A DNA stretch of 64,000 nt, taken from Planctomycetaceae bacterium (lineage in GTDB: Bacteria; Planctomycetota; Planctomycetia; Planctomycetales; Planctomycetaceae). The notes below the pieces were generated by a model, which was given only the letters and a program-made list of their open reading frames with translations, ran no database searches and had not been told where the DNA came from. The stretch lies in the NCBI GenBank assembly GCA_021732845.1, contig JAKFUF010000062.1:62001-126000 (forward strand). The letters run 5' to 3'. The position numbers and the translations under genes are program-made. Positions 27,772 through 59,263 of the stretch are shown here, piece after piece (within the stretch, counting starts at the first letter, position 1; each line of letters opens with the position of its first letter).

Positions 27772-27879
27772 GTGCGTTTCCCCGATTCACAGATCAAGGC
27801 CGCGATTCTCCACCCGGAGTTGAACATCAGGGATATGGCGCTTAAATACTTCGCGGACAAAGGACCGGAGAAAGAATAA
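27772..27879 (+). pseudogene. Truncated HEAT-type protein N-terminus
   Basis: GTG 27772 opens a 35-codon frame VRFPDSQIKAAILHPELN... It matches, from memory, the start of a planctomycete HEAT-repeat-like family that normally begins MRFPD.QIK.AILHP and continues for hundreds of residues. After residue 29 the frame enters the dispersed 320-bp element and stops within it (GPEKE stop). The gene therefore looks cut by the element, leaving only its 5' end. Confidence 0.6.
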
Positions 27880-28182
27880 AGCACGCTTCAAGATGCTAAC
27901 TGAAGGCCGGTCTTAGGCAACGAGAAGGGGGGACCACGAATTTTCACGAATAAGACGAATGTCACGAATAACAACGCGCAGGATTCCATCACCCGCGAAG
28001 CCATGCCGGTTGATCATTCGTGATATTCGTGAAAATTCGTGGTTAATTTATGACCGTACGATTCCCGCACCGTTTTGCCAGCCTTGTCGACTTCACCACC
28101 AACTTCATTCGCTGTCCTTGATGGCGTTCGCTGCTGGATAGGGAGGCAAATGTCACAGTTATTTTTGCTGCGACCCTAAGGA
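27860..28182 (+). repeat. Dispersed 320-bp element, copy 1
   Basis: This element runs from AAGGACCGGAGAAAGAATAA through CACGAATTTTCACGAATAAGACGAATGTCACGAAT tracts to TTGCTGCGACCCTAAGGA. An inverted copy lies at 32690-33012, and partial copies at 38629-38702 and 59088-59263. The 20-base left end recurs directly after the right end (27860-27879 and 28178-28197). It has no open reading frame of its own, so it resembles a non-autonomous mobile or degenerate element. Confidence 0.85.
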
Positions 28183-28399
28183 CCGGAGAAAGAATAACTG
28201 TCGCATTCTTAGAACGAATGATGATGCGATCCTTAGGACCTGTCCAAGAACTATTCCGCTGCTGGTTGGCCTGCCACACGCGACCAGTCGGGGTTTTGGA
28301 CTCAAAACATGGTGTAGTTTTTGGACGCGTCCTTAGTTAGCGTCCGGTTTCGGCCTCAAACCGGACGCTATGATGATGCGATCCCTAAGCAAAGGCATC
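28183..28399. repeat. Nested repeat ends with 13-bp hairpin
   Basis: This stretch repeats ATGATGATGCGATCC at 28219-28233 and 28371-28385, echoing the right end of the 320-bp element. Between them lies a perfect 13-bp hairpin, TAGCGTCCGGTTT / AAACCGGACGCTA (28338-28370). It is positioned downstream of the minus-strand gene ending at 28400 but lacks a T run. Confidence 0.75.
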
Positions 28400-30037
28400 C
28401 TACTTGTCTTCACTCAAGAATCTGGCAATCACGTTCGCCGTGATGCGTGAGACCGCGTCGTCGACGAGGATGCTCGGCACATACGTGATCGACCCCACCG
28501 AAAACACCGCGCCGTGGCTCGCGGTTTCGTAATACGCGATCTCTGCTCCGCCATCGTCCTGGTTGATCCCCTTGGCCAGCAAGAGCGTGCCCTTGGGAGA
28601 ATGCGGGCTGATCTTGTCGGTCTCGTGACCGGAGGCACCGCCGTTGATCCGCTCCTGCAGCGAGGCTTCACCAAACAGATCGCCGTTCTTGAGTCCCGTT
28701 CCGGCAAAGACCCAGTGGTCGGCCTTGACCACTTTGTATGGCGCGGCCGTCATGATGCCGGACTCGGTGCAGACGACCCCCAATAGGTTCGCCTCGGACT
28801 CAAGCGTGCGGTGCATCCGGCTTTCGCAGTATTCGGCTGGATTTTTGGGGTTGGGCATCCCCAGCGCGCCGCCGGTGCTGGGCTGCAGGAAGGATTTGAA
28901 CCGCACCCGGTCTTCGCTCAGAAATTCGACCTCGCAGTTCAGGCCGTTGCCGCCCAGATACATCAGCTTCCCGCCGCGGTTGTGCACCCAGTCCTTGACT
29001 TTTTGGTACATCTGGCGCGACCAGTACTCCGGATGCACGCTTATGACCAGGATCTTGTAGGCATCGAGGTCCAGGTCACCGTTGTGCAACTGCCATTCCG
29101 AATAATAGTCGTACGCAAAGCCTTCACGTTCCATCCAGCCCAGCAGCCGCCACTCGGCCGGCGCGAGGGCGCTTTGCAGGCGGCCCACGATCGGGTCAGT
29201 TACTTCCTCGTGCTCGCCGAGTGTGTTGCCGGGTTCGGGGCGCTCGAAGGAGAGCGGCAGGTATTCGTCATCTTGAAAACCCCAGACGTTGAACGAGCCC
29301 GGCTTGGTGTAGCGGTCGAGATCCTGCCGGGCATTGACGATCGGCACGTCTGGCAACTGGCTGGCGTTGATGTAGTTGCCGCGACCGCCAAAGTTGTTAT
29401 AGGCGAGCCACGTGTTGGTGGAGGCCAGGATGGCGATCGGTGCCGTCGGCTGGGCCGGCGCCACGACCCACGGGAAGGCGAAGAATTCGCCCGACTTCTC
29501 GCCCTTGGCATGCAGATAATACAGCCCAGAGCGCTCCGGGCCGGTGACGAACTGCGTGTGGTGCGCGCTGCCGTAGCCCTGCTTGTTCCAGTTCACGCCG
29601 GTCTGCGTATAGTCTCCGTCGGGGGTGATCTGCATGACCGCCCGCGGGCCGTGCTCGTCGAACCAACCCAGCAGCTTGATCTGCTCCCGCTTATATCCGT
29701 AGCGCCATAGGCTGAGCCGGTAGGCTTCGGGCGCGTGCACGCGAAACTCCGAACGCCCGCCTGATTTGACGCTCCGCGGCCACACATAGCCCAGCACGCA
29801 ATCCGACAGCAGGCGGAACTGGTGGGGTTGAGCCACGGGCAGAGTAAGGCGGACCGACTTGGAGCCGAACCCATCCTTGACGAGGGTCACGAGATAGTTG
29901 CCGGGCGGAACATCGGCGCTCACCCCGCCCCGTGGCGTGGAACGCACGACCGCCTCGGTGTGGCCGTCGCGTTGGAACTCCAGCAGCACATCCGCGATGG
30001 CCACAAACCGTTCGTCACTCACGTAGCCGATGAACAT
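28400..30037 (-). CDS. N,N-dimethylformamidase large-subunit-like protein
   Basis: The 545-residue protein resembles the large subunit of N,N-dimethylformamidase, which hydrolyses dimethylformamide to dimethylamine and formate. A jelly-roll-like N-terminal part is followed by the Rossmann-like domain with IAILASTNTWLAYNNFGG, YDYYSEWQLH, and the HPEYWS motif. In the characterised enzyme a Tyr and an HxE pair bind iron; HPE and the YDYY segment are the likely equivalents. Most homologues are not characterised, so the substrate may differ. I start at ATG 30037 (MFIGYVSDERF); the frame upstream runs into an AATCGAAA repeat. It leads into a cluster of other amide-hydrolase genes. Confidence 0.82.
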   Translation of the reverse strand: MFIGYVSDERFVAIADVLLEFQRDGHTEAVVRSTPRGGVSADVPPGNYLVTLVKDGFGSKSVRLTLPVAQPHQFRLLSDCVLGYVWPRSVKSGGRSEFRVHAPEAYRLSLWRYGYKREQIKLLGWFDEHGPRAVMQITPDGDYTQTGVNWNKQGYGSAHHTQFVTGPERSGLYYLHAKGEKSGEFFAFPWVVAPAQPTAPIAILASTNTWLAYNNFGGRGNYINASQLPDVPIVNARQDLDRYTKPGSFNVWGFQDDEYLPLSFERPEPGNTLGEHEEVTDPIVGRLQSALAPAEWRLLGWMEREGFAYDYYSEWQLHNGDLDLDAYKILVISVHPEYWSRQMYQKVKDWVHNRGGKLMYLGGNGLNCEVEFLSEDRVRFKSFLQPSTGGALGMPNPKNPAEYCESRMHRTLESEANLLGVVCTESGIMTAAPYKVVKADHWVFAGTGLKNGDLFGEASLQERINGGASGHETDKISPHSPKGTLLLAKGINQDDGGAEIAYYETASHGAVFSVGSITYVPSILVDDAVSRITANVIARFLSEDK

Positions 30038-30042
30038 AGGGG

Positions 30043-30072
30043 ATTTTCGATTTTTGATTGATGATTTTCGAT
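30043..30072 (-). repeat. AATCGAAAATC-type intergenic repeat
   Basis: On the minus strand this reads AATCGAAAATCATCAATC... AATCGAAAATC and is the same type as the in-gene copy at 10595-10626. It sits 5 bases upstream of the start codon of the dimethylformamidase-like gene. Confidence 0.8.
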
Positions 30073-30261
30073 TGTGGTGGGAGCGGTCGTCGGACTGCTC
30101 CACCACGCGTACTTGGGACCGTGCGGTTGATGTTTTCAACCACGAATAACGCGAATCTCACGAATATTGTTGTGGTTGCTATGCGCCGATGGTTTCGCTT
30201 GCCGCGCGTTGTTCACAGGATTCGAAGTGCTAGGAATTGACGAGCAGACTTTGACGACCTC

Positions 30262-30303
30262 GTCATTTGTCATTTGTCATTTGTCATTTGTCATTTGTCA
30301 TTT
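30262..30303. repeat. Six-copy GTCATTT heptamer array
   Basis: Six perfect copies of GTCATTT (GACAAAT-type reversed) run from 30262 to 30303 and overlap the 3' end of the Kelch-like gene. The stop codon TGA of that gene lies within the array. Confidence 0.95.
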
Positions 30304-31386
30304 CGCCTTCCGCTTCAACTTCCACACGTCACTCTGCATATTATTCCCGGCGACCATCCACAGCGCGTCGTTATGCACAAACACGCTCGCGGCATGACGC
30401 GGCCTCCAGGGTGTCTTCGGCAGTTCCTGCCAGTTGACACCGTCGGCCGAATGCCAGACATCGTTGCGGTTGCCGCCATCCTTGTGGTAACCCTCCATCA
30501 CCCACAGGCGACCGTCCCAGACGCCCACATCGTGATACTGCCGCGGGTGCCACGGCGCGGCGGCCGTGTGTTCGGTCCAGTGGATGCCGTCGGCGGAACT
30601 CCACACGTCGTTATGAAACTTGCGGCTGGGGGTGGTGGGGGTGTCGTAGGTGCCGCCGCCCAAAATCCAGATCCGGCCGTTCATGACGGCACTCCCGCCG
30701 ATCATGCCACGGGCTGACCAGAGCGGCTTTTCCGGAACAACTTGTTTCCACTCGCGGCCGTCGGTGGTGGTCCACATATCGTTGTAAAAGATCTCGGGCG
30801 ACTTCGCGAAGGCCGGCATCGACTGGCCGCCGATCACCCAGATCTTGTCGTCGTGGACGACGGTGTAGTGCAGTACGCGATCCTTCCAGGGCAATTCGGC
30901 ATCGCGGTTCACATAGGTCCAGGATTTGCCATCGGCCGAGTTCCAAACATCGTTTTGGTAGTGCCGCTGATTGCAGTCGCCGCCCACGATCCACATTTTG
31001 TCTTTGTAGACGACATACCCCGCCGTGTGCCGGCCCTCCCAGTCCGCCGCGGCGTCAAACGACCGGTCTTTGAAGGAGTTCGGTTTGACGAGCGTCCACT
31101 GGGCACCGTTGGCCGTCGACCAGACTTCGTTGTTGCAGATGAGCGGGAAGAATGCACGCTCGCTCGCGGCGGGGTTCCAGCCACCGATGAGCCACATCTT
31201 CCCTTGGAAACTCAGGGCACCGGCACCGTCCCGCGGCGCGAATTCGGCCTTGAGCGTAACCTGCTCCCATTCGTACTCAGGCTCTGCCGCAGCAGCAATT
31301 CCAGTGGTGCAAATCGCAACCACCGCGGCGAAGAGTGCCCGACGAAGACCTGAAACCTGCGATGCTCGACAGATGAGTGGATACAT
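30298..31386 (-). CDS. Secreted Kelch-like beta-propeller protein
   Basis: The 362-residue product has a signal peptide (residues 1-34, ending AAAAEPE). The mature part consists of about six repeats with GKMWLIGG, NEVWSTANG, DKMWIVGG, NDVWNSADGKSW, DKIWVIGG, GRIWILGGG and GRLWVMEG, typical of Kelch/galactose-oxidase-like propellers. The domain is a binding or structural scaffold, and no catalytic signature is seen. ATG 31386 (MYPLICR) is preferred because the signal peptide starts there; an alternative lies at 31434. It sits between the dimethylformamidase-like and amidohydrolase genes on the same strand. Confidence 0.8.
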   Translation of the reverse strand: MYPLICRASQVSGLRRALFAAVVAICTTGIAAAAEPEYEWEQVTLKAEFAPRDGAGALSFQGKMWLIGGWNPAASERAFFPLICNNEVWSTANGAQWTLVKPNSFKDRSFDAAADWEGRHTAGYVVYKDKMWIVGGDCNQRHYQNDVWNSADGKSWTYVNRDAELPWKDRVLHYTVVHDDKIWVIGGQSMPAFAKSPEIFYNDMWTTTDGREWKQVVPEKPLWSARGMIGGSAVMNGRIWILGGGTYDTPTTPSRKFHNDVWSSADGIHWTEHTAAAPWHPRQYHDVGVWDGRLWVMEGYHKDGGNRNDVWHSADGVNWQELPKTPWRPRHAASVFVHNDALWMVAGNNMQSDVWKLKRKAK

Positions 31387-31398
31387 AAAATAAGTTCT

Positions 31399-31536
31399 GA
31401 ACAGAAGGAAACGAAGGTAACGCAGATTGGCCAACTCAGTCTTGGGAATCGATTAAGCGTTCGAACTTTTGGATGCACGTCATACTGTCCTGCCGCGGCG
31501 GGTCCAGAGCTTCGTTTCCTTCGCTATCTTCTGTTC
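31399..31536. repeat. Inverted pair of a 27-bp GAACAGAAG repeat
   Basis: A 27-base unit of pattern GAACAGAAGnnArCGnAGG followed by nAACGnAG occurs at 31399-31425 and inverted at 31510-31536. A third copy is at 49604-49630. The inverted pair flanks 84 bases in front of the Kelch-like gene. Confidence 0.8.
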
Positions 31537-31633
31537 AAGGTGTTTCCAGTTGACCGAGAGCTTGCCGCCAGCTTGTTTCTAATGGCCGCGACTTCCGTCG
31601 CTCGTGGTGTGTTGCGTTTCGCGGCACAACACA

Positions 31634-32533
31634 CTACGCGTATTCCGGCAGGAACCGTTTCCAGTTTTCATAGATGATGTTGTGGATGATGTCATCGGAG
31701 ATCCGCGGGAACTTGGTTCCTTCCAGGATGTCGTTCACCTTCCACTGTCCGGCGATGACCTGTGGCAGCGTGGCGGACGGAAAATCCGATCCGAGGATCA
31801 GCTTGTGTTCCACGCCGTACTCAACCGCGCTCATCAGCGCATGGTAGTGCCGCAGCGGGCGGTAGTGGAGTGCCGAGACATTTGCATAGAGGTTGGGGTG
31901 CTTGCGGATCAGGACGATGCAGTCGTCCTCCCAGGGATGCCCCATGTGGGCGATGACAATCCGCAGGTTGGGGCAGGCGATGGCGATGTCCTCAAGCTGC
32001 ACCGGATTGGCATATTTGAGCGGTCCGGGCCGCACGAACGAGGTGCCCTGATGAATGTTCACCGGGATGCCAAGCTGCTCCGCCTTCTTGAACAGCGGCA
32101 AATGTTTCGGGTCCTGTGGATTCCAATTCTGATAAATCGGGGAACACTTCAGCCCGCGCAAACCGAGCGTGTTGACGTAGTACACGAGCTGGTCGACGCA
32201 GTCGGCATCGTTGGGGTCCACCGAACACCAGCCGATGAACTTCTCGGAATGTTGTTTGACAAAGCCAGCGATCAGCTCCTGGTCGGCATTGATGCCGCAG
32301 AACGGAGCCTTGATGCCAAACACGATCACCTTGTCGGCGTCCTTGGTCGCCTCCAGCAACTGCTCGGGGCGCGAGTCAAACGCGTTCTGCTGCTTGGTGC
32401 CGGCCCCCGCGAAATAGACATCTGGCGAGAGCTTCATCTTGGCCCGCTTCGCCTCCCAGGCGAATTCCACAAACTCGTCCGAGTAATGATCGGGATACCA
32501 CATCAGGTTGGTATGCGTGTCGAACAGCATCAA
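31634..32533 (-). CDS. Amidohydrolase-family (TIM-barrel) protein
   Basis: The 299-residue cytosolic protein matches the amidohydrolase-2 type: metal-binding N-terminal DTHTN (the second His of the usual HxH is Asn), Lys-containing LRGLKCSPIYQNWNP, NIHQGT, AHMGHPWEDD and the Asp of LGSDFP. These hydrolases or decarboxylases act on C-N or C-C bonds in varied substrates, so the reaction is not fixed by sequence. The ATG at 32533 starts directly with the family sequence. It is in a minus-strand run with a formamidase-type enzyme and a dimethylformamidase-like protein, suggesting amide or N-heterocycle degradation. Confidence 0.85.
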   Translation of the reverse strand: MMLFDTHTNLMWYPDHYSDEFVEFAWEAKRAKMKLSPDVYFAGAGTKQQNAFDSRPEQLLEATKDADKVIVFGIKAPFCGINADQELIAGFVKQHSEKFIGWCSVDPNDADCVDQLVYYVNTLGLRGLKCSPIYQNWNPQDPKHLPLFKKAEQLGIPVNIHQGTSFVRPGPLKYANPVQLEDIAIACPNLRIVIAHMGHPWEDDCIVLIRKHPNLYANVSALHYRPLRHYHALMSAVEYGVEHKLILGSDFPSATLPQVIAGQWKVNDILEGTKFPRISDDIIHNIIYENWKRFLPEYA

Positions 32534-32689
32534 ACGCCTTTCATGTGTCTTTCACACACCGCGAATCCAGTTTGACGAGTGGCGGGGCTTGAGCCACAAC
32601 TCTGCAGTTTAGGTCGACGGATGAAACACAAACGACACACGGACTTGTTCGAACCCATGGCAGTCTCTGTCCGGCGATTCGTCTTTTAA

Positions 32690-33012
32690 GGATCGCAGCA
32701 ACAATCACTGTGACAATTGTCTCCCTATCCAGCAGCGAATGCCATCCGGGACTGCGAATGAATTTGTTGGTGAAGTCGACAGGCCTGCAACACCGTGCGG
32801 AAGTCGTACGGTCTTAAATTAACCACGAATTGTCACGAATCTTACGAATTTAACGAATCATCAACCGGCATGGCTTCGCGGGTGATGGAATCCTGCTCGT
32901 TGCCATTCGTGACATTCGTCTTATTCGCGAAAATTCGTGGCCCCCCCTTTCTCGTTGCCTAAGACCGGCCTTCGGTCAGCATCTTGAAGCGTGCTTTATT
33001 CTTTGACCGGCC
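32690..33012 (-). repeat. Dispersed 320-bp element, copy 2 (inverted)
   Basis: Read on the minus strand from GGCCGGTCAAAGAATAAAGC to TTGCTGCGATCCTTAA, this aligns with copy 1 over its whole length with perhaps 85% identity by eye. It fills most of the gap between the amidohydrolase and formamidase genes (32534-33079). No gene is present in that gap. Confidence 0.9.
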
Positions 33013-33079
33013 CTAAATGCCGTGTTTCATCCGTGTTCAATCCGTGGCTATTTCACCCTTGGAATCCGACCGCCGTGGC

Positions 33080-38360: not shown

Positions 38361-38704
38361 GAATGACTCCTGCTGGGATCGGAGAACAGGCTGTGCGGTT
38401 TAGCCGGAACGAATGCGGACGCGCCAGACCGAGTGACCATTGGCACGCATCCGCAGAAGTATAGCCGATCCTCGTTTCAACTTGCGAGTTTCCGCCCATT
38501 GTGACGGGGCGAATCTCGACAATCTCACGCAGAATTAAGGTCAGCCAGACTGTTTGGCCTGGGAAAACTGTGCCGCGCACACGCGGATTCGGATCCACAC
38601 GCGGCATTGCTGGACCTTCCGACCCAACACCTTTATTCGTTGTCCCTGATGGCGTTCGCTGCTGGAAATCGGCAGCAGTGTGACGGTTCTTGTTGCTGTA
38701 GACG
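38361..38704. other. Intergenic gap with partial repeat
   Basis: No gene is seen in these 344 bases. The 5' part contains the promoter of the oxidoreductase gene on the minus strand. The right end holds the fragment of the 320-bp element listed next. Confidence 0.5.
38629..38702 (+). repeat. 320-bp element, right-end fragment
   Basis: TTTATTCGTTGTCCCTGATGGCGTTCGCTGCTGG and the text up to TTGTTGCTGTAGACG align with the last 75 bases of copy 1 (28106-28175). Only the right end is present, just downstream of the prephenate dehydrogenase gene. Confidence 0.75.
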
Positions 38705-59087: not shown

Positions 59088-59263
59088 CAAAGGACCGGAC
59101 AGAGAATAAAATCTCGCTTCAAGGTGCGGACCGAAGGCCGGTCTTGTGCCACGAGAAGGGGGAACCACGAATTTTCACGAATACGACGAATTTCACGAAT
59201 GACACCTGGCCAATGACACCTGGCCAATGACAACGAGCAGGATTTCCTCACCCGTGAGACGGA
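59088..59263 (+). repeat. Dispersed 320-bp element, partial copy 3
   Basis: CAAAGGACCGGACAGAGAATAAAAT and the following GGACCGAAGGCCGGTCTTGTGCCACGAGAAGGGGGAACCACGAATTTTCACGAATACG tract align with the left half of copies 1 and 2. A 14-base unit, AATGACACCTGGCC, is duplicated inside it. It occupies much of the 416-base gap 58990-59405; no gene is present. Confidence 0.85.

Follow-up and report, generated by a model that had tools for sequence, protein, structure and literature searches.

A gene-less 320-bp repeat in a Planctomycetaceae genome is a MITE, probably moved by an ISAzo13-family transposase

Short, gene-less repeats with terminal inverted repeats, high copy number, target duplications and palindromic interiors are well represented in bacteria by the Correia/NEMIS, RUP, ERIC and Nezha MITEs. 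These MITEs are generally tied to other IS groups, such as IS630-type elements with a TA duplication. The 320-bp element described here shares the general features of these repeats but differs from them in its apparent partner, an ISAzo13-family IS, and in its duplication, TWA. Target duplications of 3 bp have been reported for ISAzo13 elements (PMC10045372) and also for Zator, their reported eukaryotic counterpart (PMC5718144, PMC10045372); Zator is likened here to the partner family by its published description rather than by sequence. A third point of comparison is the GTAG-tagged REPs and TIRYT repeats (PMC3733652), likewise small palindromic repeats, found in planctomycetes too, and some of the 99-bp sister elements discussed below resemble them in holding internal palindrome pairs. 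The 320-bp element is unlike them in having target duplications and a DDE transposase as candidate partner, rather than tyrosine transposase chemistry. No earlier report tying MITEs to ISAzo13 was found in a search of mainly open-access literature, in which one paper mentions both terms and the passages retrieved from it draw no link between them.

The window analysed here is a stretch of 64,000 nucleotides from a single contig. Two full inverted copies of the repeat and two fragments had been proposed from the letters of this stretch, and BLASTN within the window bears this arrangement out: copy 1 aligns in inverted orientation with 32689-33010, at 87% over 323 bp (E 4e-111). The exact limits of both full copies given below were read off the sequence together with the alignment of copies.

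27859-27861, + strand: left target-site triplet of copy 1, AAA, a decayed TWA
27862-28176, + strand: copy 1 of the 320-bp MITE, 315 bp, its central palindrome being shorter by a 9-bp unit (copy alignment)
27862-27880, + strand: left terminal inverted repeat of copy 1, GGACCGGAGAAAGAATAAA
27933-28043, no strand: central imperfect palindrome of copy 1, with CACGAAT-type units (CCACGAATTTTCACGAAT...ATTCGTGAAAATTCGTGG); an opposite-strand self-match and a hairpin in the predicted fold
28158-28176, - strand: right terminal inverted repeat of copy 1, reading inward GGGTCGCAGCAAAAATAAC, matching the ISAzo13 element's terminal repeat at 16 of 19 positions
28177-28179, + strand: TAA between copy 1 and the 53-bp element that abuts it, common to both (sequence)
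28180-28232, + strand: miniature element of 53 bp, GGACCGGAGAAAGAATAACTGTCG...GATGATGCGATCC, from which the "20-bp repeat" stems, with ends resembling those of the larger M3 repeats
32687-32689, - strand: target duplication TTA (minus strand) at the right end of copy 2 (sequence)
32690-33013, - strand: copy 2 of the 320-bp MITE, 324 bp (sequence and BLASTN)
33014-33016, - strand: target duplication TTA (minus strand) at the left end of copy 2 (sequence)
38624-38698, + strand: decayed right-part fragment, 79%, E 3e-11 (BLASTN with copy 1)
59092-59204, + strand: decayed left-half/left-end fragment starting with AAA and then GGACCGGACAGAG, 86%, E 8e-32 (BLASTN with copy 1, aligned at 59093-59204)

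Neither full copy in the window contains an ORF of at least 80 aa, in agreement with the original prediction that the repeat encodes no protein. Further copies are abundant in the genome (9.25 Mb in 262 contigs), where pattern searches put the total at about 80-90. A 33-bp core had 89 matches at up to 3 mismatches, compared with 0 for a reversed control, and at least 40 near-full copies, at 88-100% identity, were scored out of 379 candidates in the whole genome. The body of the element measures 302-325 bp in most copies.

An alignment of 31 genome copies fixed the ends of the element and gave a consensus in which TWA is followed by GGACCGGACAAAGAATAAAGCACG on the left and TGTCACAGTTATTKTTGCTGCGAYCC is followed by TWA on the right. 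The terminal repeats, of the form GGNYCG..AANAATAA, are imperfect and about 19 bp long, the left and right repeats being identical at 12-13 of 19 positions. Among the 45 copies with both ends readable, the left and right triplets are identical in 23, where shuffling the right ends would give 12.7 (p 1.3e-4); the matched triplet is TTA 14 times and TAA 7 times. Empty sites were found at four loci (L006, L069, L060 and L089), within paralogous repeats of the same genome. When the flanks of each are joined minus one triplet, the resulting sequence aligns with uninterrupted host repeats at 96-98% identity and without a gap across the junction, which shows insertion with a 3-bp duplication. Taken together, the terminal repeats, TWA duplication, copy number, empty sites and matching transposase described below strongly support a non-autonomous mobile element, and the element belongs to a known kind, the MITE. 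In a subset of copies (L028, L010, L012 and L020), the left end has been swapped for the terminus of a neighbouring sister element, which suggests recombination, or nested insertion followed by loss.

The duplication also bears on the idea that the repeat is of REP/TIRYT type and made by an IS200/IS605-like tyrosine transposase (RAYT). Y1 transposition is not known to make a target duplication, so the 3-bp duplication runs contrary to it, and the genome offers a DDE transposase whose element has the same ends. GTAG-type REPs do occur in planctomycetes, and a number of RAYT genes lie between terminal inverted repeats (PMC3733652), but we regard the chance that a RAYT made this repeat as close to negligible.

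The original prediction had left open whether the repeat was a mobile element or coded for RNA; the first is strongly supported and the second is not, since no Rfam family matches the 320-bp element at the gathering score. The central palindrome, which folds more strongly than shuffled sequences (z -3.5, computed as single-stranded DNA), might suggest a structured or regulatory RNA family scattered as an intergenic repeat. The palindrome itself accounts for the fold, however, and the copies are bordered by TWA duplications and sit in other repeats that have empty counterparts. The other 169 genomes of the order yielded no near-full copy. The repeat is accounted for by its conserved termini and its target duplications, and we consider an RNA gene very improbable.

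A matching transposase, one of the checks proposed along with the original prediction, is present in the same genome. Locus L215 (G000:C123, 1465-2797) is a complete, intact element of 1333 bp in the window's own genome, with TAA on both sides and the ends GGATCGCGGCAACAATAAC and GGATCGCGGCAACAACAAC. Family searches place its 405-aa transposase in NF033519, "ISAzo13 family transposase", at E 6e-125 and in PF07592 at E 2e-90. D193, D283 and E326 are invariant across four aligned relatives and, by our reading of the DDE motif, are likely the catalytic residues. Over 22 bp, the right end of the 320-bp element and the IS end agree at 86-91%, and the R2 version of this right end matches the L215 terminal repeat at 18 of 19 positions; the left end is identical at only 12 of 19. 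The terminal repeats of both elements start with GGA.. and finish with AATAAC, and both share the TWA/3-bp duplication. The 320-bp element differs from the IS (NF033519, PF07592) in having no transposase gene, and the common part is limited to the terminal 19-22 bp, with short matches past the ends at chance level only. Its 3-bp TWA duplication agrees with that reported for ISAzo13 (PMC10045372). L215 and eight complete ISAzo13 elements in relatives all have TWA on both sides; the flanking triplets are identical in five of these nine, and the other four pair TAA with TTA, differing in the middle base.

Another DDE transposase of similar target taste might instead have moved the MITE. IS5-group elements make short TNA-type duplications and have GG/GA ends, so a TWA triplet and GG ends would also fit the IS5/PIF-Harbinger group, and two IS5-type elements are present on contig C68. 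These bear other ends, CTAGGCACTGTTTATAAA and those of GAGCCTGTT type. Searches with PF01609, PF13340 and PF13359 yielded no IS5-type element with matching ends: the PF01609 and PF13340 loci have other ends, at no PF01609 locus is the transposase bracketed by a matching pair, and PF13359 is absent in the family search. With an ISAzo13 element with matching ends present in the genome, a different DDE driver such as an IS5-group one appears improbable. Three further candidates were rejected. A transposase beside a matching end on contig C10 lies in an IS within a sister repeat and is not the driver; we take its element to be IS1380-like from the terminal repeat. A 1722-bp pair of ends in a relative (G076, L193) encloses an ordinary gene and has a poor right end, and a match in G156 is part of a hairpin terminator-like sequence rather than the element.

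Our main reading, to which we give a probability of roughly 85%, is that an ISAzo13-family IS supplies in trans the DDE transposase by which the 320-bp MITE moves. In such a model, the transposase would bind the terminal repeats (GGAYCGNNGCAANAATAAC and variants) at both ends of the gene-less element, which would then be joined into a TWA triplet, with the triplet copied on both sides; the interior would need no coding part and is dominated by the inverted repeat of CACGAAT units. We infer mobilisation by an L215-type transposase, as well as present activity and the chemistry of joining, from these likenesses and from the co-occurrence across species given below. The poorer match of the left end, and the unequal triplets at four of the nine ISAzo13 elements, count against this reading. 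If correct, it would assign a common type of intergenic repeat in planctomycetes to a specific transposase family and provide ISAzo13 with natural short substrates that are directly testable.

It would also explain the nested repeat landscape of the genome, in which further small families with similar ends (M2, M3 and others) are nested in each other. M2 is about 205 bp in one measured copy and M3 about 500-600 bp as judged by eye; the end pattern has 245 genome matches at up to 2 mismatches, compared with 0 for the control. The 53-bp element beside copy 1, of the same class as the 320-bp element and bordered by TAA and TTA, clarifies a detail of the window. The left-end 20 bases of copy 1 had been noted to recur just after its right end, possibly as a target duplication; the recurrence is confirmed (28177-28199), but these bases form the left end of the 53-bp element rather than a duplication made by copy 1. 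On contig C10 (L031, G000:C10), the IS that bears a transposase and has IS1380-like ends has split the sister MITE that it entered.

At least nine related species of the order carry ends of the same type on unrelated interiors, and one genome has as many as 221 end-pattern matches; the ends were not found in viral contigs. Exact TWA pairs border 41 of the 57 elements examined in relatives, and one has a TAA/TTA mismatch. PF07592 was found in all eight end-rich genomes searched. All 10 genomes with at least two end matches carry PF07592, compared with 41 of 170 overall (hypergeometric p 2.6e-7, a statistic that ignores phylogeny and shared ancestry and is based on draft genomes).

Many sister elements with ISAzo13-type ends have a fixed length, exactly 99 bp in 45 of 57 (G078, G084, G101, G104, G130, G133 and G135; examples are L163, L167, L171, L172, L200 and L202), with those of G101 mostly 100 bp. 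The length of 99 bp applies to most or all complete elements in six of the seven sampled species, and the interior hairpin pair varies by species. Long inverted repeats in other elements are built of CACGAAT-, CACGGAT-, CACAGAG- or GCGAAG-type units. A bolder and, in our judgement, unlikely reading is that ISAzo13 ends form a fixed "frame" for interchangeable palindromic cargo. Were this true, the transposon would be a vehicle gathering and spreading palindromic repeats, and either the transposition machinery or selection would keep its length constant; a net insertion of 102 bp keeps the reading frame, which is a proposed ground for selection on length. One 99-bp element (L200, G078:C156, 2995-3093) does lie in frame within a 646-aa ORF, adding 34 codons to a protein that is otherwise continuous, but in-frame insertion is a lead rather than a rule for these elements, as this is the only one of 57 convincingly within a gene. 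Fixed-length sister elements with changing hairpins may offer a test case for the spread of palindromic repeats in bacteria.

The DNA between copies 1 and 2 encodes an N,N-dimethylformamidase-like protein, a Kelch protein and an amidohydrolase, and immediately beyond copy 2 there is an acetamidase/formamidase-like gene. An inversion of the enclosed genes, which had been raised as a possibility, is not supported; the copies share only 87% identity. Copy 2 has kept its matched TTA/TTA and thus shows no sign of past exchange with copy 1, which argues weakly against a past crossover at copy 2.

Directly outside copy 2, 33014-33050 (ATTGAACACGGATGAAACACGG) is a short-unit repeat of the CACGGAT type. 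Inner inverted repeats of near-tandem short units (CACGAAT, CACGGAT, CACAGAG and TCATTTG) occur in the elements of different species, including 27933-28043 of the window, L192:2634-2857, L190, L194 and L193:4100-4323. Short units of these kinds also stand alone, in intergenic positions, in relatives (L042, L045, L046 and L048).
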